Below are positions 41,459 to 56,401 of a stretch of 64,000 nucleotides of DNA, one piece after another (the first letter of the stretch is position 1; the number at the start of each line of letters is the position of its first letter). This DNA is from Salinigranum marinum. GTDB lineage: Archaea; Halobacteriota; Halobacteria; Halobacteriales; Haloferacaceae. The position numbers were made by a program, and so were the translations under genes. Location: contig NZ_CP100461.1 in the NCBI RefSeq assembly GCF_024228675.1, forward strand, positions 1,798,001 through 1,862,000, in the 5' to 3' direction. The notes under the pieces were generated by a model. That model made no database searches. It was not told where the DNA came from and saw only the letters and a program-made list of their open reading frames with translations.

Positions 41459-42337
41459 ATGCGCTTCGACACCAGCGCCCAGCTGTCCGCGGCCGACGCG
41501 ACGGGGTGGCGACGGGGCCTCTACGACGACATCCAGGCCACGTTCCGCGCGCCGGTCGTCAACTGGATCTTCCGGACGCTCGCGGCGAACGACACCGAGC
41601 TCACCCGATATCTCTGGGGGCAGCTCAAGCCCGTCTTCGAGACGCGGGCGTGCGGTGAGGCGTGTGCCGCCTACCGCGACGCGGTGCTGGAGCCGTTCAC
41701 CGACGACCGGCCCCGGTACCGCGCCACCGACCTCGGCTGTGCCCCGTGGGCCTGGCGCGAACTCCGCGGCCAGCTCCGGACGTTCGACACCGTCGCCCCG
41801 CGGCTGGCGCTCGCGTTCGAGCTGCTCTACCGCTCGCTCCACGACGAGCCGGTCGGGACGGAGCCGCGGACGGACGCCGCCGCGACCGCGCCGCTCCCGG
41901 ACGGGTTCGACGGCGACCGCGGGCTGGAGCCGACGATGGCGGCGTTCGACGACCCGCCCGCGGCGGTCGCGGAGACGGTCGCGGCGGTGCAGGCGTTCCA
42001 CGGCTTCGACGAGGGGCTCCCGTCGGTCTACCGCTGTCTGGTCCAGTGGCCGACGGCGTTCACCCGGCTGTGGGACGACGTCGAACCGCTCGTGCGGTCG
42101 GGGGCGTTCGAGACGGCGTGTGCGGACGCTCGCGCGGTCGCCGTCGAGTTCGCCGAGTCGACGCCGTACGCGCCGGGCGTGACGCCCGCGGCGCTCGCGG
42201 CGGCGGGGTTCGACGGGGAGACGATCACGGCCGTCCGGGCGCTGTTCGACGAGTTCGCACGGGGGCCGGTCGAGACGGTGCTGCCGGCCGTGCCGCTGTT
42301 CGCGGCGAGCGTCGGCGCGGGCCTCAGGAAATCGTAG
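41459..42337 (+). CDS. DehI-family halocarboxylic acid dehalogenase-like protein
   Basis: 292 residues, mostly helical. The arrangement RAPVVNWIFRTLAANDTELTRYLWGQLKPVFET followed by a second repeat with VAAVQAFHGF, LVQWPTAFTRLWDDV matches the DehI family, whose bacterial members remove halogen from D- and L-2-haloacids. Haloarchaeal relatives are annotated from homology only; a native role outside dehalogenation is possible. The start at 41459 follows a TATA box. Its 3' end overlaps the convergent regulator gene by 14 nt. Confidence 0.8.
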   Translation: MRFDTSAQLSAADATGWRRGLYDDIQATFRAPVVNWIFRTLAANDTELTRYLWGQLKPVFETRACGEACAAYRDAVLEPFTDDRPRYRATDLGCAPWAWRELRGQLRTFDTVAPRLALAFELLYRSLHDEPVGTEPRTDAAATAPLPDGFDGDRGLEPTMAAFDDPPAAVAETVAAVQAFHGFDEGLPSVYRCLVQWPTAFTRLWDDVEPLVRSGAFETACADARAVAVEFAESTPYAPGVTPAALAAAGFDGETITAVRALFDEFARGPVETVLPAVPLFAASVGAGLRKS

Positions 42338-42971
42338 CGTCGGCGAACGCCGCGGTGGGCTCGTCGCGGATGCCGAGCGCGTCCGAGAGGAGCGTCTGTT
42401 CGGCCTTGCGGAGGTGTTCGTGGAGCGTCGCCCGAGAGATCCCGAGCTCGGCGGCCAGTTCCTCGCTTTTTACCTCGCGAGGCCACTCGTAGTAGCCCGC
42501 CTGGAGCGCGTGCATGACGACCGTGCGCTGGCGCTCGGTGAGTTCCCCCTGTCGGTCGCCCATCTTCTCGAGGCGGCCGAGCGACACCGTCCCGATCTCA
42601 CGCATGTCGCTGACGATCCGCTTGAAGTCCTCCCGCCGGAAGAAGAGGACGTGGTAAATCCGCTGGCTCCCGGCGACCGTGTTCTGCCGGCGCAACGTGC
42701 CGTGGTTCTTGTAGATGGCCGAGTACGCCCCACAGGAGGGCTTCGTCACCAGCAGGTTGTCGTCGTCGAGGCGGGCGACCTCCCTGACGTGGTCGGCGGC
42801 GGCGAGGCGGTCGTAGAACTCGTCGGCGTGGTCGCCGGCCCGCATGACGAACGTGACGAGGTCGTTCTGCACCTCCTCGACCTCGATGACGACCGAGTCG
42901 TCGGTACCGTCCAGCAGCTCGTTGAGGATACAGTCCGTCCGCTGCTTGAAGTATAAGGTCGCCTGAAACAT
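42324..42971 (-). CDS. Bat-type helix-turn-helix transcriptional regulator (HTH-10)
   Basis: 215 residues. An N-terminal sensory-type domain (1-155, starting MFQATLYFKQRTDCIL) precedes a C-terminal HTH-10 domain: LTERQRTVVMHALQAGYYEW and then SEELAAELGISRATLHEHLR. This is the arrangement of the large bacterio-opsin-activator (Bat)-like family of haloarchaeal regulators. An ATG at 42971 with a TATAAG-type AT stretch nearby fits as start. It ends inside the 3' end of the DehI gene and lies 152 nt downstream of the zinc-ribbon gene on the same strand, so it might control either neighbour. Confidence 0.9.
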   Translation of the reverse strand: MFQATLYFKQRTDCILNELLDGTDDSVVIEVEEVQNDLVTFVMRAGDHADEFYDRLAAADHVREVARLDDDNLLVTKPSCGAYSAIYKNHGTLRRQNTVAGSQRIYHVLFFRREDFKRIVSDMREIGTVSLGRLEKMGDRQGELTERQRTVVMHALQAGYYEWPREVKSEELAAELGISRATLHEHLRKAEQTLLSDALGIRDEPTAAFADATIS

Positions 42972-43123: not shown

Positions 43124-43783
43124 TCACTCGGCCGACTCGACCGTCACCGAGCGGACCGTGAGCCGGTCGTCGACGACGACCCGACAGCGGTCGCCCGCAC
43201 GGCGTGCGTCGACCCGGACCCGGAGTGGATCGCGTGACGTGACGGCCGCGCGGTCGGGTGCGACGGCGAACGGGACGGTCCACGGGCGGCGGTCGCGGAG
43301 ATCGGCCCCGCGGTCGTGCCAGAACGAGACGACCGCCGGATGTGAGAGGAGCGTCGCGCCGACCGAGGGGAAGTAGACGCCGCCGCAGTCGCGACAGAGG
43401 AAGGTCGCGACCGGCTGGCCGCGCGTCCCGTCGTCGACCGGGGAGACGGCGGCGTCGGCGCGCCCCGAACACCACGGACAGACGCCGGCGACGAGGCTCC
43501 GAACGTGGGCCCGAAAGCGGATCGATCCCGCCGTCAGCAACGCCTCCCGCGAGCGGCCGGCGACGCCGTGTTGCGGCACGTGGATCATCATCGTGCGCAG
43601 GGCACAGGCCACGCAGTCGACGTAGAGGACCTGATCGGCCGTGTACCGCGCCTCGACGCGACCGCCGCAGCGGGGACAGCGCTCGTCGCCGTCGAGGAGA
43701 CACCGAACACCTGGCTCGGGACGTGGACCTACCGGCCCGAGTTCGGCGAGCGGATCGACGCGGTCATCGCCGACGACTTTCAC
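43124..43783 (-). CDS. Zinc-ribbon protein (DUF7351-like domain) lacking its N-terminal HTH
   Basis: 219 residues with four CxxC pairs (Cys36/39, 57/60, 102/105, 130/133) that would form two zinc ribbons, then HPAVVSFWHDRGADLRDRRP and a C-terminal beta region. This is the pattern of the C-terminal domain of haloarchaeal ArsR-like regulators (DUF7351), but the winged helix that normally precedes it is absent: only about 35 residues precede the first Cys. The start is GTG at 43783, overlapping the TGA of the preceding hydrolase gene by 4 nt, so it is translationally coupled to the catabolic cluster. It could be a ligand-sensing or protein-binding partner rather than a DNA-binding protein. Confidence 0.75.
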   Translation of the reverse strand: MKVVGDDRVDPLAELGPVGPRPEPGVRCLLDGDERCPRCGGRVEARYTADQVLYVDCVACALRTMMIHVPQHGVAGRSREALLTAGSIRFRAHVRSLVAGVCPWCSGRADAAVSPVDDGTRGQPVATFLCRDCGGVYFPSVGATLLSHPAVVSFWHDRGADLRDRRPWTVPFAVAPDRAAVTSRDPLRVRVDARRAGDRCRVVVDDRLTVRSVTVESAE

Positions 43784-44430
43784 TCCCGGTCGAGTTCCGC
43801 GAGCACGGCGTCGAGCGGCCGAACGTCGCCGTACTTCGCGTCGATGTCGAAGAGGTTCGCCCGGTGAGGGCCCTCGGCGCGGTCGCCGACCGCGTCCTCG
43901 GGGACGACGACGCGGTAGCCGTGCTGCATGCCGTCGACCGCGGTCGCGCGGATACAGCCGCTCGTCGTCACGCCCGCGAGCACGAGCGTGTCCACCCCAT
44001 CGGTGACCAGTTCCGTCGAGAGGTCGGTCCCGAAGAAGGCGCTCGCGTACTTCTTCAGCAACACCCGTTCGTCGCCGACGGGCGCGACGCGGTCGTCGAC
44101 GTCGACCGCCGCGGTTCCCAGTCGGAGTTCGCGCAGCGCCGGTACTTTCTCGATGAACACGCCCGCGTCGCCGTACGACTCCTCGTAGGCGACGGTGGTG
44201 AAGTACCGCGGGAGGTCGTGTTCGCGGAACGCGTCGAGGAGGTCGGCGGTGGCGTCCAGCACGGCGGAGACGTCCGAGCCGAGGTCGGTCTCCGGGTCGG
44301 TGAAGGCGTTGATGAGGTCGATGACCACGAGCGCGGGGCGGTCGCCGAAGCCGACGTCGCTGCCGAACTCGTGGTCGGCGTAGTAGCGGGCGACTGCGTC
44401 GCCGTGGGCGGTGGCCGTGTCGTCTGTCAT
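43780..44430 (-). CDS. Cysteine hydrolase, isochorismatase family (N-carbamoylsarcosine amidase-like)
   Basis: 216 residues. The family catalytic triad is visible: Asp38 (VVIDLINAFTD), Lys126 or Lys127 (LLKKYASAFFGTDL) and Cys159 (AGVTTSGCIRATA), with the usual cis-peptide region VTTSG. Family members hydrolyse amides such as N-carbamoylsarcosine, nicotinamide and ureidoacrylate. The N-terminal 25-residue lead (YYADHEFGSDVGFGDRPAL) and the neighbouring HyuA/HyuB make N-carbamoyl-amino-acid hydrolysis the best guess. It lies 37 nt downstream of hyuB and overlaps the zinc-ribbon gene. Confidence 0.9.
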   Translation of the reverse strand: MTDDTATAHGDAVARYYADHEFGSDVGFGDRPALVVIDLINAFTDPETDLGSDVSAVLDATADLLDAFREHDLPRYFTTVAYEESYGDAGVFIEKVPALRELRLGTAAVDVDDRVAPVGDERVLLKKYASAFFGTDLSTELVTDGVDTLVLAGVTTSGCIRATAVDGMQHGYRVVVPEDAVGDRAEGPHRANLFDIDAKYGDVRPLDAVLAELDRE

Positions 44431-44467
44431 GGGTTGAGATGAACGTAGGTCGCTGGCTACTGATGGA

Positions 44468-46354
44468 TCAGCTGGTGTACCGCGCGTCGAACTCCCGGCG
44501 CTCTTCTTCGATCTGGGCGGCGAGTTCGGCCTCGCTCGGGAGCGGCCCGAAGTCGAACTCCGGGAGTTCGCCGCGCTCGGCGCGGCGCTCCTCGCGCAGG
44601 GCCGCGGTGGCGTCAGCGTCGAGGTCGCCCTCGTCGAGGACGACGCCGTAGTCGTCGCGGGCGCTCTCGGCGGAGATCAGTCCCCGGCGCACCTCGGTGG
44701 CGACCGTCTGGGGGTCGCGTTCGAGCGGGTCGCCGAGCCCGCCGCCGCCGGCCGTCTCGAAGACGAGTTTGTCGCCCGGCGAGACGGGGACGTTCTCGAC
44801 CTTCGAGGGAAGCGCCTCGCGCGTGCCGTCCGTCCGCACCAGCTCCTTCCGTGAGGGTTGGGCGTGCGCGCCGCCGTCGACACCGTAGGGGTAAGTGAGT
44901 GCGCGGTCGTCCTGGAAGGTGATCGCCCCCTCGGCCTCGAACGTGTACACCTTCCGGACGCCGTGGCCGCCGCGGAACCGGCCCGCGCCGCCGGTGTCCG
45001 TTCGCGTTGAGTACTCGTCGATCGTGAGCGGGTAGTACGCCTCCAGGTACTCCGTCGGGACGGTCTTGAACAGCGGCCACCACGAGTGGCCGTCGAGCCC
45101 GTCGCCGCCGGGCCGGGCGGGGATGCCGCCGTAGAGGATTTCGAGGAGTTGGAAGTCGTTCCCGTCGGCGTCGGTGCCCGCGTACACCAGGTTGGGGCTC
45201 GTCCCGTAGGAACCCGCGACGGAGAACTGTTCGCCCAGGGCTTTCGAGAACACCTCCTGCAAGAGGTCGAACTGGCGGGCCATCAGCGTCAGTCGGTTCC
45301 CCAGGGCGGCGGGGAACTCCGGTTTCAGGACCGTTCCGGAGGGGATAGTGACGTGGATCCGGTCGTAGAAGCCGTCGTTGAACGTCAGCTGCGGATCGAA
45401 CGCCATGATGAGGAACACCCCCGTGAACATCTTGAACATGTTCTCGTTCAGGAGGAAGTTCACCGTGCCTGGCACCTGCTCGTCCGTCCCGGTCCAGTCG
45501 ACGTGGATGTCGTCGCCCTCGCGGCGCATCTCCATGTGGAGCTTGATCGGGCCGTTGCCCTGGCCGTCGTCGTCGGCGTAGTCCTCGAAGACGAACGTCT
45601 CGCCCTCGGGCAGGAGGTCGCGGATGAGCTGGGTGACGCCGTCGCGGGTGCGGTCGAGGATGGCGTCACACGCGAGGAGATACGTCTCCTTGCCGAACCG
45701 CTCACAGAGCTCTTTGATGCGCGTCTCCGCGGCCTTCGTCCCGGCGGCGAGCGCCTTGATGTCCGCCTCTGCGTGGTCGGGGAGTCTAGTGTTGTGTTTG
45801 AACGTCTCCAGCAGTTCGGCGTCGAACTCGCCACGCTTGTACAGCTTGGTGGGTGGGAGGCGGATGCCCTCCTCGAAGACGGTGTTGGCGTTGATCGGGA
45901 TCGACCCCGGCGTCTTCCCGCCGACGTCCATCAGGTTGCCCCACTGGCTCGAGAAGCCGACGAGGTCGCCCTCGAAGAAGACGGGGCGGAGGAGCATCAT
46001 GTCCGGCAGGTGTGAGACCGCCCCCTCGCACATGTACGGGTCGTTCGTGGCGATCACGTCCCCCTCCTCCAGCTCGTCCCACCCGAACGGGGAGTTGGCG
46101 ATGATGTCGTCGATGGCGGAGCCGAACTGCCCCATGACCATCCGCCCCTTGCGGTCGGCGATCATCGGGAACTGGTCGGACTGCTCGCGGATGACCGGCG
46201 AGATGGCCGTCGTCTCGACGACGCGATCCATCTCGTAGCGGGTGTTCGCGAGCGTGGACTCGACGATGTCGAGCGTCGTCTGATCGATTCGCTCGTGGGC
46301 ACCCACGAAGTCCGGTTCGGCTTCGGTTTCGGTCTCGGTCTCGGGTTCACTCAT
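44468..46354 (-). CDS. hyuB: Hydantoinase B / 5-oxoprolinase family beta subunit
   Basis: 628 residues. Typical HyuB landmarks are SEPxxDFVGAHERIDQTTLDIVESTL at the N-terminus, VIREQSDQFPMIADRKGRMV, DVIATNDPYMCEGAVSHLPDM and GGHGVRKVYTFEAEG near the C-terminus. With HyuA it forms an ATP-dependent cyclic-amide hydrolase (N-methylhydantoinase, 5-oxoprolinase) or a carboxylase (acetone or acetophenone carboxylases). Its start overlaps the hyuA stop by 4 nt (46351-46354). The C-terminal 100 residues are strongly acidic. Confidence 0.94.
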   Translation of the reverse strand: MSEPETETETEAEPDFVGAHERIDQTTLDIVESTLANTRYEMDRVVETTAISPVIREQSDQFPMIADRKGRMVMGQFGSAIDDIIANSPFGWDELEEGDVIATNDPYMCEGAVSHLPDMMLLRPVFFEGDLVGFSSQWGNLMDVGGKTPGSIPINANTVFEEGIRLPPTKLYKRGEFDAELLETFKHNTRLPDHAEADIKALAAGTKAAETRIKELCERFGKETYLLACDAILDRTRDGVTQLIRDLLPEGETFVFEDYADDDGQGNGPIKLHMEMRREGDDIHVDWTGTDEQVPGTVNFLLNENMFKMFTGVFLIMAFDPQLTFNDGFYDRIHVTIPSGTVLKPEFPAALGNRLTLMARQFDLLQEVFSKALGEQFSVAGSYGTSPNLVYAGTDADGNDFQLLEILYGGIPARPGGDGLDGHSWWPLFKTVPTEYLEAYYPLTIDEYSTRTDTGGAGRFRGGHGVRKVYTFEAEGAITFQDDRALTYPYGVDGGAHAQPSRKELVRTDGTREALPSKVENVPVSPGDKLVFETAGGGGLGDPLERDPQTVATEVRRGLISAESARDDYGVVLDEGDLDADATAALREERRAERGELPEFDFGPLPSEAELAAQIEEERREFDARYTS

Positions 46355-48414
46355 TGGGTGTCACCTCGGGTGATCTCGATGCAGCCGAACCGATCGATCT
46401 CGGCCACGTGGTCCGGCTGGACGACCACGGTGGCGTCGTCCTCGATGACGACCGCCGGGCCCGCGAGACGGTTGCCCGGCCGCAGTTCCTCGCGGTCGTA
46501 AACGGGCGTCTCGTGGAACCCGTCGCCGAAGTAGACCGACTCGGTGGCCAGGTGCGCCGCCGAGGGGTCTTCGCCCCCGAGTTCTTCGGCGGCGAGTTCG
46601 ACCCCCTGGACCGTCCCCTTCCCGATGACGCGGAGGTTCGCGATCTCGAGGGGCGCGTCGAGCGAGAAGCCGAACTGCCGGTCGTGTCTGTCCTCGAAGT
46701 CGCCCTTGATCTCCGCGAGCCCCCTCTCGCCCGTCAGCGCGTCGCGTTCGACGGGGATGGACATCTGGATGTCCTGGCGGTAGTAGCGGCAGTCGGCGTA
46801 GTAGTCGAACGTGTGATCCGCGGGGTCGACCCCCTCGTCGCGGAGCCACGCCGCGGCCTCCTCGCGGAGTCCGTCGTACGCGGCGGCGACGTCGCCGCCG
46901 GAGACGTCGGTCTCGGTCTCGAGGAACGTCTCGGTGAACTCGTTCTGGACGTCGCTCGTGAGGAAGCCGAACGCCGACATCACGCCCGGACCCGGCGGGA
47001 TGAGCAACGGATAGGAGCCGATGAGATCCGCGAGCGCGTTGGCGTGCATCGGTCCGGCACCGCCGAAGGCGACGAGACCGAACTCGCGGGGGTCGTAGCC
47101 GCGTTCGACGCTCACCACCCGGAGCGCGCTGTACATGTTCTCGTTGACGAGGTCGACGACGGCCTGGGCGGCCGCCTCGACGCTTGACCCACGGTCGGCG
47201 GCGACGCGTTCCATCGCGGACCGGGCGGCGTCGCGGTCGAGTTCGAGATCACCGCCGAGCTTCACCGCCTCGGGAATGCGCCCGAGGACGACGTTCGCGT
47301 CCGTCACGGTCGGCTGGTCGCCGCCTCTGCCGTACGACGCGGGCCCTGGGTCGGCCCCCGCCGAGTTGGGACCGACGACGAGCGAGCCGTTGATCTGGAC
47401 GCGGGCGATCGAGCCCCCACCCGCCCCGACCGTGTTGATGTCGACCGACCGTGCCTTGAACTCGCGGTAGCCCACCTTCGTCTCTCGCGACGTCGATGGC
47501 GAGCCGCCTTCGACCAGCGACACGTCGGTCGAGGTGCCACCCATGTCTAAGGTGAGGACGTCCGGGATGCCTTTCTTCTCCGCCAGGGTCGCCGCGCCCA
47601 CCACGCCGCCCGAGGGCCCCGACAGCGCGAGTTCGACGGGTCGCCGTTTCGCCGAGGCCGACGACATCAGCCCCCCGTCCGAGCGGACGAGGTTCATGCT
47701 CCCGTGAAAGCCCTCGGCGGCGAGTCGATCGTCCAGCGTGTCGAGATAGCGAATGACCGTCGGGCGGGCGTAGTCGTTGATCACCGTCGTCAGCGTGCGC
47801 TCGTACTCGCCGTACTCGGGGACGATCTCCGAAGAGATCGAGACGGGGAGGTCGGGGTATGCGTCGGCGACGACCTCCCGGACCCGTCGTTCGAGAGCAG
47901 GGTTCAGATACGAGTTCAACAGCGCCACGGTGAGCGCCTCGACGCCGTTGTCGACGAGTTCGTCCACCGCGGCTTCGACCTCGGCCTCGTCGATTCCTTC
48001 CGTGCGTTCGCCCGAGGGGGAGGCGACCCGGCCCGAGATCCCGCGGGTGTCGACCAGATCCGCCAGCGGCGCGGGTTTCTCCATCGCCATCCAGCCGTAC
48101 AGCGGGCCGGGCGTCCACGCCCGGGCGAGGTGCAGGACGTGTTCATGCCCGTTCGTCACGAGCAGCCCCACGTCCGCACCCGTCTCCTCCAACAGCATGT
48201 TCGTCACGACGGTCGTCCCGTGGAAGACGAGATCGAGATCCCCGACGGCGGTGTCCGCCTTCTCCGTCGCCCGCGTCACACCTGTTACGACCCCCTCAGA
48301 CTGGTTCTCCGGCGTGGAGAGCACCTTCGAGATCGTGAGTTCGCCGGATTCCTCGTCGAAGACGATGACGTCGGTGAACGTTCCCCCGACGTCAACACCG
48401 AGATTATGTGTCAC
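46351..48414 (-). CDS. hyuA: Hydantoinase A / 5-oxoprolinase family alpha subunit
   Basis: 687 residues with ASKHA-type ATP-binding elements: GVDVGGTFTDVIVFD near the N-terminus and TLDMGGTSTDVSLVEGG near residue 290, plus GAGGGSIARV. It phosphorylates the ring or the carboxyl donor, after which HyuB completes ring opening or carboxylation. The start is the GTG at 48414 (MTHNLGVDVGG); an upstream GTG at 48429 would add five residues. Overlaps hyuB by 4 nt; 87 nt separate it from the upstream synthase gene. Confidence 0.94.
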   Translation of the reverse strand: MTHNLGVDVGGTFTDVIVFDEESGELTISKVLSTPENQSEGVVTGVTRATEKADTAVGDLDLVFHGTTVVTNMLLEETGADVGLLVTNGHEHVLHLARAWTPGPLYGWMAMEKPAPLADLVDTRGISGRVASPSGERTEGIDEAEVEAAVDELVDNGVEALTVALLNSYLNPALERRVREVVADAYPDLPVSISSEIVPEYGEYERTLTTVINDYARPTVIRYLDTLDDRLAAEGFHGSMNLVRSDGGLMSSASAKRRPVELALSGPSGGVVGAATLAEKKGIPDVLTLDMGGTSTDVSLVEGGSPSTSRETKVGYREFKARSVDINTVGAGGGSIARVQINGSLVVGPNSAGADPGPASYGRGGDQPTVTDANVVLGRIPEAVKLGGDLELDRDAARSAMERVAADRGSSVEAAAQAVVDLVNENMYSALRVVSVERGYDPREFGLVAFGGAGPMHANALADLIGSYPLLIPPGPGVMSAFGFLTSDVQNEFTETFLETETDVSGGDVAAAYDGLREEAAAWLRDEGVDPADHTFDYYADCRYYRQDIQMSIPVERDALTGERGLAEIKGDFEDRHDRQFGFSLDAPLEIANLRVIGKGTVQGVELAAEELGGEDPSAAHLATESVYFGDGFHETPVYDREELRPGNRLAGPAVVIEDDATVVVQPDHVAEIDRFGCIEITRGDTQ

Positions 48415-48501
48415 CTGTAAACACTCCACGCGTTACTGGAGGGGCGGGGGGCCTAACTGTTGCCCTCCCCCTGTTGGCCGGGCACGCGCCGAACGGGCGG
48501 C

Positions 48502-49584
48502 TCAGACCTCGTCCGCGAGCGACACCGCGTCGTCGAGTTCCATCGGCCCCTCGTCGGCGAGTCGGGCGACGAGTCGCTCGACGCGCTCGTCCGTAACCTC
48601 CGCCCCCGCCCGGTCGAGGAGTCGGCGGGCACCGCCGCGGCCGGTCTCGGGACCGAACACGAGGGTTCGGGACCCGCCGAAGCGCGTCGGATCGTACGGC
48701 TCCATCGAACTCGGCGCTTCGAGCATGGCGGCGACGTGGATGCCCGACTCGTGTTCGTGGACTTCCTCGCCCAGCACCGCCTTCCGCGGGTCGACCGACT
48801 CGCCGAGCGTCGAGAGCACGTCCCGGCAGGCCGGAACCAGTTCCTCGACCGCGAGTCCGAACCCCTCGTCGTAGTCGAGCACGCCCGCGACGACGAGTTC
48901 CTCCAGCGCCGTGTTGCCCGCGCGTTCGCCCAGTGAGGCGACCGACACGTCCGCCTTCCCCACCCCGAGTTCGTAAGCGACGAGCGCGTTCGCGGTCGCA
49001 CAGCCGAGGTCGTCGTGGAGGTGGACGCCGGTACGACCGAGGTCGACCGACTCGCCGACCGATTCGAGGAACGCCCGGACCGACCGCGGCGTGGCGTTGC
49101 CGACCGTGTCGGCGAAGCTCACGAACGCGCAGTCGTCGAACGCCGCGACCGCGTCGACGACGACCTCCGGTGGGGTGCGGAACGCGTCGACGAGCGTCAG
49201 AAACGGCGTCGCGCCGCCCTCGCGGACCCGATCGACGGCCGCGCGCATCGCCTCCAGCATCTCCGCGCGTGACTTCCCGACGGTGTGCGCCAAGTGGAGC
49301 TCAGAGAGCGGGCCGAACACCTCGACGACGTCCGCGCCCGCGTCGAGCGAGGCGTCGACGTCCCTCGGGACGGCCCGGGCGATCGAGACGATGTCCGCGT
49401 CGCAGACGCTCGCCGCCCGGTCGATGGCGGCGGCGTCGGGGTCGCCCGTGACGGCGAAGCCGGCCTGCACGTAGTCGAGGCCGAGGCGATCGAGCGCGCT
49501 CGCGGCCGTGACCCGGTCGTCCACGCCGTACGATCGCCCCGGCATCTGCCCGCCCTCGCGGACGGTGACGTCCTGCAGGCGCAT
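48502..49584 (-). CDS. LeuA/homocitrate-synthase-like pyruvate carboxyltransferase family enzyme
   Basis: 360-residue DRE-TIM enzyme. The N-terminal signature reads LQDVTVREGGQMPG (in place of the usual DTTLRDGEQ), and the metal-binding HxH is in TGVHLHDDLGCATANA. The C-terminal part contains HESGIHVAAML, the catalytic His segment of homocitrate/isopropylmalate synthases. These enzymes condense acetyl-CoA with a 2-oxoacid; lyases of the same fold do the reverse. The gene starts at the base next to the CoA-transferase stop, so both are coupled. Its substrate and direction are unknown. The altered signature argues for a function other than leucine synthesis. Confidence 0.85.
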   Translation of the reverse strand: MRLQDVTVREGGQMPGRSYGVDDRVTAASALDRLGLDYVQAGFAVTGDPDAAAIDRAASVCDADIVSIARAVPRDVDASLDAGADVVEVFGPLSELHLAHTVGKSRAEMLEAMRAAVDRVREGGATPFLTLVDAFRTPPEVVVDAVAAFDDCAFVSFADTVGNATPRSVRAFLESVGESVDLGRTGVHLHDDLGCATANALVAYELGVGKADVSVASLGERAGNTALEELVVAGVLDYDEGFGLAVEELVPACRDVLSTLGESVDPRKAVLGEEVHEHESGIHVAAMLEAPSSMEPYDPTRFGGSRTLVFGPETGRGGARRLLDRAGAEVTDERVERLVARLADEGPMELDDAVSLADEV

Positions 49585-50796
49585 TCAGATGATCTCCCCG
49601 GCTTCGAGTTCGGCGATCTCCTCCGCGTCGAGGCCGAGTTCGGTGTACACCTCGACGTTGTGTTCGCCGTGGGGCGGGCCCGCGTGGGTCACCTCGCCGG
49701 GCGTCCGCGAGAACTTCGGAACCACCCCGTGGGTCCGGAACGGCCCGACCTCGTCGTCGTCGACGCTGACGACGTTGTCGCGGGCGGCGTACTGCTCGTC
49801 CGCGAAAACGTCGCGCATGTCGTAGACGGGCCCGAGGATGCCGCCCTCGGCCTCGATCGTCTCGATCACCTCCTCGGTGGGGTGTTCGCGCGTCCACGCC
49901 TCGATCTCGGCGTCGAGCGCGTCGGCGTTCTCGACCCGTTTCTCGTTGGTGGCGAACTCGTCGCGCTCGAGCAGGTCCTCGCGATCGATCGCCCGCGCCA
50001 CGCGCTCCCAGATGCGCTGGTTCGACGCCGACAGCGTGATGTAGCCGTCGGCGGTCTCGTAGACGTTCCGCGGCGCGGCGTTGGGATGCTGGTTCCCGCG
50101 GCGCTCGCGCACCGACCCGTCCTGGTCGAACGCCTCGACGTCGCCGACGAACAGCCGGAAGAGCGGTTCGTACAGCGACACATCGATCACCTGGCCCTCG
50201 CCGCTGCCGCCGCGGCCGACGTCGCGCTCGAAGATCGCCATGAGCGTCGCCTGAACGGCGAACTGCGCAGCCGTGAGGTCCGCGAGCGAGATCGGCGGCA
50301 GGAGGGGTTCGCGGTCGGCGAAGCCGTTGGCGTGCGCCCACCCCGAGATCCCCTCGGCGACGGTCCCGAAGCCGGGCTTTTCCGAGCGCGGCCCGGTCTG
50401 GCCGTAGCCCGAGATGCGGAGCATGATCACCGACTCGTTCACGGCTTTGAGGTCCTCGTAGCCCAGCCCCCACCGCTCCATCGTGCCGGGGCGGAAGTTC
50501 TCGAAGACGACGTCGGCGTCCGCGACGAGATCGAGCGCGAGATCTCGCCCCTCGTCGGTCGAGAGGTTCAGCGTCACACAGCGTTTGTTCCGGGCGATCG
50601 CCTTCCACCACAGCGAGACGCCCGCCTCGAACGGCGGCCACTCGCGGAGGGGATCGGGGTGCTCGGGGTGTTCGGCGAAGACGACGTCCGCGCCGAAGTC
50701 GGCGAGCATGAGCGTCGCAAAGCCGCCACTGATCATGCCGGAGAAGTCGACGACTCGGAGGCCGTCGAGCGGCCCAGGGCGTGAGAGCGCGGTCAT
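49585..50796 (-). CDS. Class III CoA-transferase (CaiB/BaiF family)
   Basis: 403 residues. GLRVVDFSGMISGGFATLML, the FRPGTMERWGLGYEDL motif and ISGYGQTGPRSEKPGF are standard. The catalytic Asp is present as Asp173 in PPISLADLTAAQF. Such enzymes move CoA between carboxylic acids through an aspartyl-CoA thioester. The ATG at 50796 is preferred over an upstream TTG because GGAGGAT, a strong Shine-Dalgarno element, precedes it by 2 nt. A TTTTAG box (about 50857-50862, minus strand) may be the promoter of the whole minus-strand cluster down to 43.1 kb. Confidence 0.93.
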   Translation of the reverse strand: MTALSRPGPLDGLRVVDFSGMISGGFATLMLADFGADVVFAEHPEHPDPLREWPPFEAGVSLWWKAIARNKRCVTLNLSTDEGRDLALDLVADADVVFENFRPGTMERWGLGYEDLKAVNESVIMLRISGYGQTGPRSEKPGFGTVAEGISGWAHANGFADREPLLPPISLADLTAAQFAVQATLMAIFERDVGRGGSGEGQVIDVSLYEPLFRLFVGDVEAFDQDGSVRERRGNQHPNAAPRNVYETADGYITLSASNQRIWERVARAIDREDLLERDEFATNEKRVENADALDAEIEAWTREHPTEEVIETIEAEGGILGPVYDMRDVFADEQYAARDNVVSVDDDEVGPFRTHGVVPKFSRTPGEVTHAGPPHGEHNVEVYTELGLDAEEIAELEAGEII

Positions 50797-53106: not shown

Positions 53107-53607
53107 TCAGCGGTCGGGGCCGTCGTGATCGTGACCGTGACCGTCGTGGTGGTCGTAACCGTGGCCACCGCCGTGGACGGACCTGATCTCGTCGTCCGAG
53201 TCGCCGACGACCGCCAGTTGCACCTGCTGGATGCCACGGAGCGACTGGATGCGGCGCACGAGGTCGCGGATGTCGGCCGCCGGCCCGTCGACGACGAGCG
53301 TCTCCAGACACCGGTCCGCCGAGAGGTGGACGTGCTGGGTCGAGACGATCGTCTCGTGGAGTTCGTGCTGGAGAGCCAGGAGGGCGTCCGTCACGCCCGC
53401 GACATCGTGGTCGTACAGGATGACGACCGAGCCCTGATGGCGACCGTCGAGGTCGTCGCGCCACCGGTACGAGGAGACGAACCCGCGGAGGGCGTCCCGG
53501 ATCGCCTCCGAACGGCTGTCGTAGTCGGCGTCTGCGACAACGTCGTCGACCTCCGCGAGCAGGGTGGTCGGGACGGTGAGACTCACACGGTCGAGGCGCT
53601 CGGCCAT
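53107..53607 (-). CDS. nikR: Nickel-responsive regulator NikR with His-rich tail
   Basis: 166 residues. An N-terminal ribbon-helix-helix (RVSLTVPTTLLAEVDDVV, 7-24) is followed by an ACT-like domain with the four Ni ligands conserved: His81, His92, His94 and Cys100 (STQHVHLSADRC). After the normal end of the family an added tail of about 20 residues is histidine/Asp-rich (HGYDHHDGHGHDHD). NikR represses nickel uptake genes. It is divergent from cbiM of the ECF transporter. The start taken is ATG at 53607; a GTG at 53670 would add 21 residues and would sit closer to the likely TATA box. Confidence 0.94.
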   Translation of the reverse strand: MAERLDRVSLTVPTTLLAEVDDVVADADYDSRSEAIRDALRGFVSSYRWRDDLDGRHQGSVVILYDHDVAGVTDALLALQHELHETIVSTQHVHLSADRCLETLVVDGPAADIRDLVRRIQSLRGIQQVQLAVVGDSDDEIRSVHGGGHGYDHHDGHGHDHDGPDR

Positions 53608-53816
53608 GCCTCCCGGTCCCGCCTCCGGCGCGATGAAGCTTTCTCTCCGCCGACCCACGGGCGTCGTCACGATCGAGCGTGTATGAGTGACCGAACAACC
53701 GGTTCTCGACCGGATAAAAGCGCTTTCGTTGTCAATTCTCGGAGAACAGAACCGATATTACGAACCGAGTAGAAAGTATTATCCGCGCCGGGCAAAACGT
53801 TCCGGTCGAACCCCAC
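53608..53816. promoter_or_regulatory. nikR / cbiM control region with candidate NikR operators
   Basis: The minus-strand TATA-like CTTTTATCC (53713-53721) could serve nikR. The plus-strand AGAAAGTATTAT (53771-53782), about 40 nt before the ATG at 53817, could serve cbiM. Between or beside them are inverted repeats CCGGT-TCTCG-ACCGG (about 53699-53713) and TTCTC-G-GAGAA (about 53736-53746), and a direct repeat GAACCGA-N6-GAACCGA (about 53749-53768). These are candidate NikR sites; none has the E. coli GTATGA consensus in both halves. Confidence 0.4.
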
Positions 53817-54473
53817 ATGCACATTCCTGACGGCTTTCTCGACCCGTGGGTGCTCGCCGGCTGTTTCCTGCTGGCGGCGGCCGCGGTCGGGGTCTCCTCG
53901 TGGAAACTGCGCGGCGGCCTCGACGGGGCGCGCGTCCCGCTTCTCGGCGTCGTTGCCGCCGGCATCTTCGCCGCACAGATGCTCAACTGGCCGATCCCCG
54001 GCGGCACGAGCGCGCACTTCGTCGGCGGCGCGTTCGCCGCTATTCTCCTCGGTCCGTATCTCGGCTGTCTGGCGATGGCGTCGGTCGTCGTCGTCCAGGC
54101 GTTCGTCTTCGGTGACGGGGGCGTCCTCGCGCTCGGCGCGAACCTGCTGAACATGGCCGTCATCGACGTGTTTGTCGGCTACGTGTTGTTCCGCGCGCTC
54201 GTCGGCGTCGACGAGACCCTCGCCGCGTTCGTCGCCGGCTGGGGTGCGATCACCGTCTCGGCGGCCGCGGTCGGCCTTCAGGCGGGCCTCTCGTCGACGT
54301 TCGCGTACGACCTCGGGACGACCCTCACCGTCATGACCGCGGGACACGCCGTTCTCGGCCTCGTCGAGGGAGCGATCACCGTCCTCGTCGTGCGCTACCT
54401 CGTGCAGGTCCGACCAGACCTCGTGCTCGGGCTCGGCCGTGCCCGCGCGACCCCCGAGGAGGTGGCGGCGTGA
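53817..54473 (+). CDS. cbiM: Nickel/cobalt ECF transporter, substrate-binding membrane subunit CbiM/NikM
   Basis: 218 residues, about seven hydrophobic segments. The absolute hallmark MHIPDGFL at the N-terminus supplies the metal ligands (Met1, His2), and WPIPGGTSAHFVGG supplies a further His. It forms the S-component of an energy-coupling-factor transporter for Ni2+ or Co2+. With NikR encoded next door, nickel is the likelier cargo. First gene of cbiMNQO; its end overlaps the next start by 4 nt. Confidence 0.95.
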   Translation: MHIPDGFLDPWVLAGCFLLAAAAVGVSSWKLRGGLDGARVPLLGVVAAGIFAAQMLNWPIPGGTSAHFVGGAFAAILLGPYLGCLAMASVVVVQAFVFGDGGVLALGANLLNMAVIDVFVGYVLFRALVGVDETLAAFVAGWGAITVSAAAVGLQAGLSSTFAYDLGTTLTVMTAGHAVLGLVEGAITVLVVRYLVQVRPDLVLGLGRARATPEEVAA

Positions 54474-54784
54474 GCGCCTCGGCCGTGACCCGCCCGTGGC
54501 TCCGCCGCTCGCTCGTCGCCGTCGGTGTGCTGGTGTTGCTCGCGCCGGTGTTCGCGCTGGCCGCCGGCGCGGTCGGCTACGCCGAACCGCTGGAGAACGT
54601 CGCCGAGGCGACCGGCGCGGTCGAACACGAGCGGACGCTCCTCGGAAGCCCCCTCCCCGACTACTCCGTCCCGGGCACCGGAACGGTCGTCGGCACGCTC
54701 GTCTCGGGGGTCGTCGGCACGGCGATCACCCTCGGCGTCGCGCTCGGCGTCGGCCGGCTACTCGACCGCAACCCCGACCCGTGA
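54470..54784 (+). CDS. CbiN/NikN-like PDGLE-domain subunit of the Ni/Co transporter
   Basis: 104 residues: a signal-anchor-like segment (SLVAVGVLVLLAPVFALAAG), an extracytoplasmic part with PLENVAEATG and GSPLPDYSVPG, and a second hydrophobic segment near the C-terminus. This PDGLE-type subunit partners CbiM/NikM in archaea and many bacteria. The GTG start at 54470 overlaps the cbiM stop (GTGA), so translation is coupled. Confidence 0.9.
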   Translation: MSASAVTRPWLRRSLVAVGVLVLLAPVFALAAGAVGYAEPLENVAEATGAVEHERTLLGSPLPDYSVPGTGTVVGTLVSGVVGTAITLGVALGVGRLLDRNPDP

Positions 54785-54788
54785 GGCG

Positions 54789-55586
54789 ATGACGGCCCTC
54801 CTCCACGTCTCGACCGATCTCGTCGGTGTGGTCCGCGCGGCGCTCGAAACCGAGGAGACGGCGGCGGTCGACGGCTTCGTCCAGCGACTCCACCCCGCCG
54901 TCCGGCTCCTCGGCGTCGTCGCGCTCCTCGTCGCGGCCGCGCTCTCGGCGGATCTGGTCGTCCTCGTCGGCCTGCTGGCTCTCGCGGTCGCCCTCGCGGT
55001 CGCGTCGCGGGTGCCGCTCCGATCGTTCCTCGCGCGGACGCTCGCCGTCGCGGCGCTCTCGGGTGTCGTCGTCCTCCCCCAGCTCATCCTCTACCCGGGG
55101 CCGACGGCAGCGACACTCTGGGGCGTCGAGATCACCCACACGGGGCTCGCGTACGTCGCCGTCTTCGAGACCCGCGTGACCGCGAGCGTCGCCCTCGTGA
55201 CGCTCCTCACGTTGACGACGCCGTTCGGGACGCTCGTGGCGACGCTCCGGCGGCTCGGCGCGCCGACGACGCCGACGACGCTCCTCGCGCTCACCTACCG
55301 CTACCTGTTCGTGAGCTTCGCCGAGCTCCACCGGGCGCTGCTTGCGCGGGAGAGCCGACGGCTCCGCCCGCGCGGGATCGCCGCCGAGTGGCGCGAACTC
55401 GGGGCGCTCTCGGGGAGCTTTCTCCTGCGGACGATCGAACGCGGCGAGCGCGTCGAGCGAGCGATGCGGGCCCGGGGGGGTGCGCGACCGGCGACGCCGT
55501 ACCGTCGGCCGCGGCCGCTCGGCGTGCGCGACGGCCTGTTCACCCTGACGGCGCTCGGCACGCTCGCGCTGGTGGTGTTGTCGTGA
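54789..55586 (+). CDS. cbiQ: ECF transporter T-component CbiQ
   Basis: 265 residues with six hydrophobic segments. The C-terminal cytoplasmic region carries the coupling-helix motif with ALLARESRRLRPRG (about 190-203) and GERVERAMRARGG (about 227-239), which contact the ATPase. It couples ATP hydrolysis by CbiO to metal uptake by CbiM. It starts 4 nt after the NikN-like gene, and its stop overlaps the cbiO GTG start. Confidence 0.93.
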   Translation: MTALLHVSTDLVGVVRAALETEETAAVDGFVQRLHPAVRLLGVVALLVAAALSADLVVLVGLLALAVALAVASRVPLRSFLARTLAVAALSGVVVLPQLILYPGPTAATLWGVEITHTGLAYVAVFETRVTASVALVTLLTLTTPFGTLVATLRRLGAPTTPTTLLALTYRYLFVSFAELHRALLARESRRLRPRGIAAEWRELGALSGSFLLRTIERGERVERAMRARGGARPATPYRRPRPLGVRDGLFTLTALGTLALVVLS

Positions 55587-56401
55587 CCGCGCCGGTCCTC
55601 CGTGCGCGCGACCTCCGGTACGCGTACCCCGACGGGACCGTCGCGCTCGACGGCGTCGACCTCACCGTCGCGTCGGGCGAGCGCGTGGCGATCACTGGCC
55701 CGAACGGGTCGGGGAAGAGCACGCTCCTGCAGGCGCTCGGCGGCCTCGTCGAACCCGCGGATGGACGGGTCGAGTACTTCGGCGAGACGACGAACGCCGA
55801 GGCGGTCCGCGAGCGACTCGGCGTCCTTCTGCAAGAGCCCGACGACTACCTGTTCAACACGACGGTGAGAGCGGACGTCGAGTACGGCCCCGCCCAACTC
55901 GGCGTGCCGCGCGAGGAGGCCGACGACCGCGTGGCGGCTCTCGCCGACGCGCTCGATCTCGGCGACCTGCTCGACAAGCCACCGCACCGCCTGAGCGGCG
56001 GCGAAAAGAAGCGCGCCGCACTGGCGAGCGTCCTCGCGTTCGAACCGGACGTGCTCCTCCTCGACGAGCCCGTGAGCGCCGTCGACGCGCCACGGACGGC
56101 CGACGTGCTCGACCTGCTCGACCGGCGCTGTCGAGCGGGAGCGACCCTCGTGACCGTCACGCCCGACGTCGAACTGCTCCCCCGGGTGGCCGACCGGATC
56201 GTCGTCGTCGGCCCCACGGGAACCATCGTCGCCGACGGTCCCGTCTCGGACGTGTTGACCGACGCCGAGACGCTGGCGACCGCGGGGCTCGAACCGCCCA
56301 CGGTCGTCCGCCTCTTCGAGACACTCGGCTGGGACGATCCGCCGGTCGACGTCGACGCGGCTGCCGAGCGACTCGCCGCTCGGGGTCTCGCGCGCCGCTG
56401 A
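55583..56401 (+). CDS. cbiO: ECF transporter ATPase CbiO
   Basis: 272 residues. Walker A GPNGSGKST (about 37-45), signature LSGGEKKRA (about 136-144), Walker B DVLLLDEPVSAVD (about 156-168); the switch His is replaced by Thr-Pro-Asp in LVTVTPDVEL, an unusual change at that site. Energises Ni/Co uptake. The start is GTG at 55583 (VTAPVLRARDL); no ATG fits. Only one ATPase gene is present, so a CbiO homodimer is expected. Confidence 0.94.
   Translation: MTAPVLRARDLRYAYPDGTVALDGVDLTVASGERVAITGPNGSGKSTLLQALGGLVEPADGRVEYFGETTNAEAVRERLGVLLQEPDDYLFNTTVRADVEYGPAQLGVPREEADDRVAALADALDLGDLLDKPPHRLSGGEKKRAALASVLAFEPDVLLLDEPVSAVDAPRTADVLDLLDRRCRAGATLVTVTPDVELLPRVADRIVVVGPTGTIVADGPVSDVLTDAETLATAGLEPPTVVRLFETLGWDDPPVDVDAAAERLAARGLARR

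Follow-up and report, generated by a model that had tools for sequence, protein, structure and literature searches.

Ring-opening enzymes of the hydantoinase/oxoprolinase family and the enzymes that may follow them are known from several catabolic settings: an N-methylhydantoinase and an N-carbamoylsarcosine amidase degrade N-methylhydantoin, indoleacetate degradation with the HyuAB-like IaaCE includes a CoA-transferase step, and nicotinate fermentation ends with the LeuCD-like dimethylmaleate hydratase DmdAB followed by 2,3-dimethylmalate lyase of the ICL/PEP-mutase family. Here we describe a cluster of six minus-strand genes at 43124–50796 of a 64,000-nt stretch of the haloarchaeon Salinigranum marinum (NZ_CP100461.1, GCF_024228675.1; positions 1,798,001 to 1,862,000; hereafter the window). 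Open reading frame (ORF) checks and Pfam identify these as a class III CoA-transferase, a DRE-TIM enzyme, HyuA, HyuB, an isochorismatase-family amidohydrolase (ISO) and a DUF7351 protein. We consider it moderately probable that the cluster encodes a single pathway degrading a cyclic imide-like compound or another cyclic amide.

The cluster resembles each of its closest described counterparts in part. N-methylhydantoin degradation uses the same families for its first two steps, but the partners conserved here are a CoA-transferase, C-C lyases and hydratases. LeuC/LeuD and ICL-type lyase families, as at the end of nicotinate fermentation, recur in hyuAB-ISO and DRE-related loci, whereas here HyuAB and ISO stand upstream, no nicotinate enzymes were seen, and a CoA-transferase with a DRE-TIM or HMGL enzyme often stands in for the lyase. 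The pairing of succinate-hydroxymethylglutarate (HMG) CoA-transferase with HMG-CoA lyase involves the same CoA-transferase family, and bacterial versions of the cluster carry an HMGL-subfamily lyase; in haloarchaea, however, the lyase place is held by a homocitrate/isopropylmalate synthase (HCS/IPMS)-like or ICL-type enzyme. The caprolactamase CapAB shares subunit architecture and ATP motifs with the window HyuAB, but the paper on it describes no ISO, CoA-transferase or lyase partner (PMC8453981).

Comparison of 292 haloarchaeal genomes revealed a close ISO orthologue in 29, all of which carry a hyuA-hyuB-ISO module. This module is linked to CoA-transferase and DRE-TIM genes in 16 of the 29 genomes, including the window, and to an ICL-type lyase in the remaining 13, and none has both or neither lyase type at the locus (0/29). 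Neighbourhoods of 59 DRE-family loci were compared, synteny being read in retrieved stretches whose ORFs were called by a simple codon-usage method; ORF calls were poor in genomes of different base composition, and conclusions there are based on tblastn. At 15 DRE loci and the window, hyuA, hyuB and ISO lie within 10 kb and are 71–84% identical, in several gene orders that include a contiguous hyuA-hyuB-ISO-CoA-transferase-DRE-HTH (helix-turn-helix) arrangement (L044, L052, L055, L056, L058, L059, L063), a divergent arrangement (L042, L046, L047), and CoA-transferase-DRE-HTH-hyuA-hyuB-ISO (L036, L067). ISO accompanies a DRE-TIM gene with an adjacent type-A CoA-transferase in 17/32 genomes versus 12/260 otherwise (Fisher p 1e-11; related genomes are not independent). 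The 13 loci without this pair have hyuA-hyuB-ISO followed by a 312–319 aa ICL/PEP-mutase-family protein, annotated as such in Natronomonas pharaonis, whose hyuAB, ISO and lyase genes are NP_RS13710, NP_RS13705, NP_RS13700 and NP_RS13695 (PL131). The lyase motif KRCGH is present in 13/13 of these sequences (c11), and the nearest solved enzymes include 2,3-dimethylmalate lyase, oxaloacetate acetylhydrolase and methylisocitrate lyase, the score against the methylisocitrate lyase PrpB equivalog (222 bits) falling below its cut-off of 354. In one genome (G195), a CoA-transferase-DRE-LeuCD locus exists apart from the hyuAB-ISO-ICL locus.

Related loci with varying cleaving enzymes are found in many unrelated bacteria as well. 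From a genome-collection scan with the HyuA alignment, 72 loci of the same hyuAB subfamily were chosen by HyuB identity alone (at least 48%); these encode ISO (52/72), a CoA-transferase with an HMGL-like enzyme (49/72), an ICL-type lyase (10/72) and LeuC (12/72). In contrast, ISO, HMGL, ICL and LeuCD are all absent from 15 control loci belonging to other HyuAB subfamilies, which gave just one weak CoA-transferase match (Fisher tests: ISO, p about 1e-7; CoA-transferase plus HMGL, p about 6e-7; loci are not independent). Plasmid-borne examples are ISO-hyuA-hyuB-CoA-transferase-HMGL in Geobacillus, with leuC/leuD beyond an IS element, HMGL/CoA-transferase-hyuA-hyuB-ISO in Acidiphilium, HMGL-hyuA-hyuB-CoA-transferase-ISO in Novosphingobium and CoA-transferase-hyuA-hyuB-ISO in Rubrobacter, and the NCBI annotation agrees with the gene set for the first three. 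Their HMGL proteins pass the NCBIfam HMGL subfamily cut-off of 246 bits (Novosphingobium 305, Geobacillus 307, Acidiphilium 269). Recurrent bacterial neighbours comprise GntR/FCD and GntR/UTRA regulators, a TonB receptor, and ABC and FAD enzymes, and indicate no single substrate. The same six enzyme families are thus linked in haloarchaea and several bacterial phyla, with the cleaving enzyme exchanged often among three options. At least 11 changes between these options on the HyuB tree (a quick tree with some long branches) suggest that the interchangeable lyase types do the same job.

Exchange of the lyases in itself limits the possible chemistry. The substrate of an ICL-type lyase must be a 2-hydroxy acid with a beta-carboxylate; a CoA-transferase and an HMGL/HCS-type enzyme together can split that acid as its CoA ester, and LeuCD enzymes hydrate alkylmaleates. 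Since both lyase types fit it and LeuCD acts on alkylmaleates, the common acid would most simply be a 2-alkylmalate, formed from an imide via ring opening and amide hydrolysis. HMG was rejected as the common acid, as an ICL-type lyase could not cleave it. From the observed gene content, linkage, conservation and swapping we infer every reaction and the reaction order: HyuAB would open the ring at the expense of ATP to give a half-amide, ISO would hydrolyse the amide, releasing ammonia and a substituted maleate or malate, and a LeuCD-type hydratase, encoded in the operon of some relatives and presumably elsewhere in the genome here, would add water where the ring had a double bond. The class III CoA-transferase would then convert the 2-alkylmalate to its CoA thioester, an alkylmalyl-CoA, for retro-Claisen cleavage by the DRE-TIM enzyme to a 2-oxo acid and an acyl-CoA; alternatively, an ICL-type direct lyase would cleave the alkylmalate without CoA. 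The earlier note had proposed a route of this kind, in which a cyclic amide is opened and hydrolysed to a dicarboxylic acid that is activated with CoA and then split by retro-aldol/Claisen cleavage. This general route gains strong support from gene-set conservation across archaea and bacteria and from lyase swapping, while its individual reactions stay predictions from sequence. Together these observations argue strongly, at the genomic level, for a pathway with a defined alkylmalate-type intermediate, and we did not find this gene combination or pathway described in the open-access papers searched. Many annotations of 'hydantoinase', 'citramalate synthase' and 'HMG-CoA lyase' would become testable members of one route.

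Several observations weigh against this imide pathway. The window cluster and most bacterial loci lack a hydratase gene, and the nearest LeuC-like gene of the S. marinum genome is 45% identical and about 0.55 Mb from the cluster. The ISO sequence does not separate N-carbamoyl from maleamate-type substrates, the motifs being common to both groups, and the products cleaved by the two lyase types might not be the same. Neither lyase option was found in 16 labelled scan loci, some owing to contig ends and L125 to an uncounted DRE-TIM gene. Finally, many haloarchaea have the CoA-transferase-DRE pair beside transporters and without hyuAB. With regard to the hydratase, the same genome has a catabolic island at C1:2.38–2.41 Mb (2376000–2410900; L213, L214) with a LeuC/LeuD pair and three ICL/PEP-mutase-family genes, as well as MmgE/PrpD-like, CoA-transferase, major facilitator superfamily and tricarboxylate-transporter-like genes (names partly by eye), and this island might supply the hydratase to the cluster.

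The occurrence of the CoA-transferase-DRE pair apart from hyuAB bears on whether the cluster is one system or two unrelated operons, the latter having been tied in the earlier note to a promoter and terminator in the gap upstream of hyuA and to occurrence of the pair without hyuAB. The second of these is indeed seen in many relatives, but sequence inspection found neither signal in the gap. Since the pair is linked to hyuAB-ISO in 16 genomes and in several gene orders, a common downstream module seems a better reading than a pair of unconnected operons. Other DRE-TIM loci include CoA-transferase-DRE or DRE with a TauT-type ABC transporter and LeuC/LeuD (L037, on a Natronorubrum daqingense plasmid, and L066), the LeuD of L037 scoring above the LeuD/DmdB model cut-off, DRE with a sugar-type ABC transporter and a distant CoA-transferase (L074, L075, L077–L093), and DRE with a tripartite tricarboxylate transporter (L048, L054, L062, L094). 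As the DRE-TIM family is also paired with tricarboxylate or sugar-type ABC transporters and distant CoA-transferases, it probably serves several substrates, and the CoA-transferase-DRE pair seems to be a cleavage module supplied by various upstream modules. Three further haloarchaeal loci (L109, L110, L111) have another HyuAB subfamily (36–41%), a distant ISO (46–51%) and ABC-transporter-like neighbours, possibly representing a related pathway.

The DRE-TIM enzyme combines HMGL-like and HCS_D2 domains (PF00682 and PF22617) and has the motifs DVTVREGGQ, HLHDD and GERAGN, the last of which is found in 60/60 members of its family. Orthologues (at least 45% identity) occur in 57/292 haloarchaeal genomes and are set apart from LeuA/CimA-type paralogues by a clear drop in identity to about 36–40%. 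VTVREGGQ had been regarded as an altered DRE signature; however, its R-E pair is common to 60/60 family members and to the solved homocitrate synthase 6ktq (REGEQ), so the motif is normal and gives no evidence of an altered active site. The enzyme belongs with the IPMS/HCS synthases, and some of its orthologues carry the NCBI names 'citramalate synthase' or 'LeuA family protein', consistent with a citramalate/homocitrate-like synthase working in the condensing direction on acyl-CoA from the CoA-transferase, in which case the cluster would be biosynthetic or anaplerotic. We judge this very unlikely, because the enzyme scores far below every synthase equivalog cut-off (241/517 bits for IPMS, 239/485 for LEU1_arch and 211/463 for NifV) and because its slot is held by enzymes passing the HMGL cut-off in bacteria and by an ICL-type lyase at 13 haloarchaeal loci, both cleaving families. 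The recurrence of a known or presumed C-C lyase family as partner also argues against degradation of a hydantoin or lactam to an amino or other acid, with CoA activation followed by a reaction that does not cleave a C-C bond, as in indoleacetate degradation. A hydantoinase-like ATP-dependent enzyme has been reported in indoleacetate metabolism (PMC8453981), but ISO and LeuCD have no place there, and such a route has little chance of applying here.

The CoA-transferase matches PF02515 over its full length (profile positions 1–366 of 366), and its nearest solved relatives are 4ed9, a CaiB/BaiF family protein, and succinate-hydroxymethylglutarate CoA-transferase (SUGCT). The nucleophile of formyl-CoA transferase is Asp; the corresponding position is Glu (IDVSLYE) in the window protein and 10uh, Asp in 4ed9 and YfdE, and Ser in SUGCT.

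ISO (PF00857, 121 bits) aligns with solved enzymes at an Asp (vvidl D), a Lys (llkkyas K) and a Cys (ttsgc C), which we take to be catalytic, and its nearest solved structure is N-carbamoylsarcosine amidohydrolase 26st (194 bits). Enzymes of the ISO type have terminal amide or ureido groups as their targets, so HyuAB probably opens either an imide or a cyclic ureide ring. Both hydantoinase/oxoprolinase subunits are recognised above cut-off by PF05378, PF01968, PF19278 and PF02538. HyuA has the motifs DVGGTFTD (8–15), DMGGT (290–294) and GADPGP (353–358), invariant across alignment A1 and corresponding to the family ATP-site motifs DxGGTFTD, D[MV]GGT and GxxPGP (PMC8453981), and ring opening is predicted to be ATP-dependent. 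Of the CapB metal ligands Asp41, His99, Asp102 and His124 (PMC8453981), the window HyuB keeps three (D60, H115, D118) and has N141 in place of the fourth. This position, His in CapB, is Asn in 29/29 haloarchaeal HyuB proteins tested and Gln in solved N-methylhydantoinase; of the bacterial members inspected, nearly all have His, while L136 has Asn. The best NCBIfam models are those of CapAB, though at scores (HyuA 502 bits, HyuB 225 bits) far below the cut-off of 1000. Apart from these features, one in-frame stop each was noted in the ISO match of L036 (G238:C1:336877-337497) and the HyuB match of L039, for which decay or sequencing error are possible explanations.

Solved structures nearest HyuA and HyuB include N-methylhydantoinase which, with the nearest relative of ISO, agrees with the suggestion in the earlier note that HyuAB and ISO convert N-methylhydantoin to N-carbamoylsarcosine and on to sarcosine; the CoA-transferase and DRE-TIM genes would then be a separate operon, adjacent by chance, as their occurrence without hyuAB would allow. 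We regard this as unlikely. Linkage in 16 haloarchaeal genomes in several gene orders, the CoA-transferase, HMGL or ICL-type lyase and LeuCD of the bacterial loci, and the lack of a promoter-like stretch in the 48415–48501 gap all argue against chance adjacency, and a route ending in an amino acid leaves the CoA-transferase, lyases and LeuCD without a role. Sarcosine formation was rejected as the main function, its enzymes not being the conserved partners.

Returning to the imide pathway, alkylmaleimides are attractive as substrates because they are natural oxidation products of chlorophyll and heme, and maleimides and hematinic acid have been reported from leaves and lake sediments (PMC7318184). 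In a cross-domain version of the pathway, hematinic acid, methylethylmaleimide and methylvinylmaleimide from heme/chlorophyll oxidation would be assimilated: HyuAB would open the imide, ISO would remove the amide, LeuCD would add water, and interchangeable lyases, either CoA-dependent or CoA-independent, would carry out the cleavage. No cluster gene points specifically to tetrapyrroles, and we put this forward as an unlikely speculation; if true, it would show how microbes finish tetrapyrrole breakdown products.

The layout of the cluster (Table 1) is as the earlier note described with respect to all six ORFs, their junctions and the gap, and Pfam bears out its family assignments. The CoA-transferase and DRE-TIM genes abut at 49584/49585, and 4-nt overlaps join hyuA to hyuB (46351–46354) and ISO to the DUF7351 gene (43780–43783). 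In the 70 nt before the start codons, only the CoA-transferase (TTTTA, -63) and the HTH_10 regulator (TTTAT, about -40) have A/T runs of at least 5, a pattern that would fit a single transcription unit spanning 50796 to 43124 and a regulator with a start of its own. The 48415–48501 gap has no such run, and its inverted repeats are 6-nt ones only.

Table 1. Features of the S. marinum cluster, in window coordinates
Feature	Position	Strand	Evidence and remarks
Class III (CaiB/BaiF) CoA-transferase	49585..50796	-	PF02515, 389 bits
DRE-TIM enzyme, homocitrate/isopropylmalate synthase type; proposed alkylmalyl-CoA lyase	48502..49584	-	PF00682 + PF22617
87-nt gap	48415..48501	-	no A/T run of at least 5, no terminator-like hairpin
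HyuA, ATP-binding subunit, hydantoinase/oxoprolinase family	46351..48414	-	PF05378/PF01968/PF19278; GTG start at 48414
HyuB, metal-binding hydrolase subunit	44468..46354	-	PF02538
ISO, isochorismatase-family amidohydrolase (N-carbamoylsarcosine amidase / maleamate amidase group)	43780..44430	-	PF00857
DUF7351 zinc-ribbon-like protein without HTH	43124..43783	-	PF24042; 4-nt overlap with ISO
HTH_10 (bat-type) transcriptional regulator	42324..42971	-	PF04967; next gene downstream of DUF7351

The HTH_10 gene, omitted by the earlier note, belongs to the cluster in addition to the six genes; HTH relatives are present in most DRE- and ICL-type loci, and the protein is probably the cluster regulator, with its own promoter. 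It is 59–65% identical to regulators of ICL-type loci versus 38–55% to those of DRE-type loci, as if the lyase part had been exchanged. The DUF7351 protein, by contrast, is dropped as a pathway member because it has a match in one related locus only (L050, 36%). Elsewhere in the window, a NikR-like gene and, on the opposite strand, CbiM-like and further genes (53107–56401; named by eye) suggest a nickel/cobalt uptake operon.

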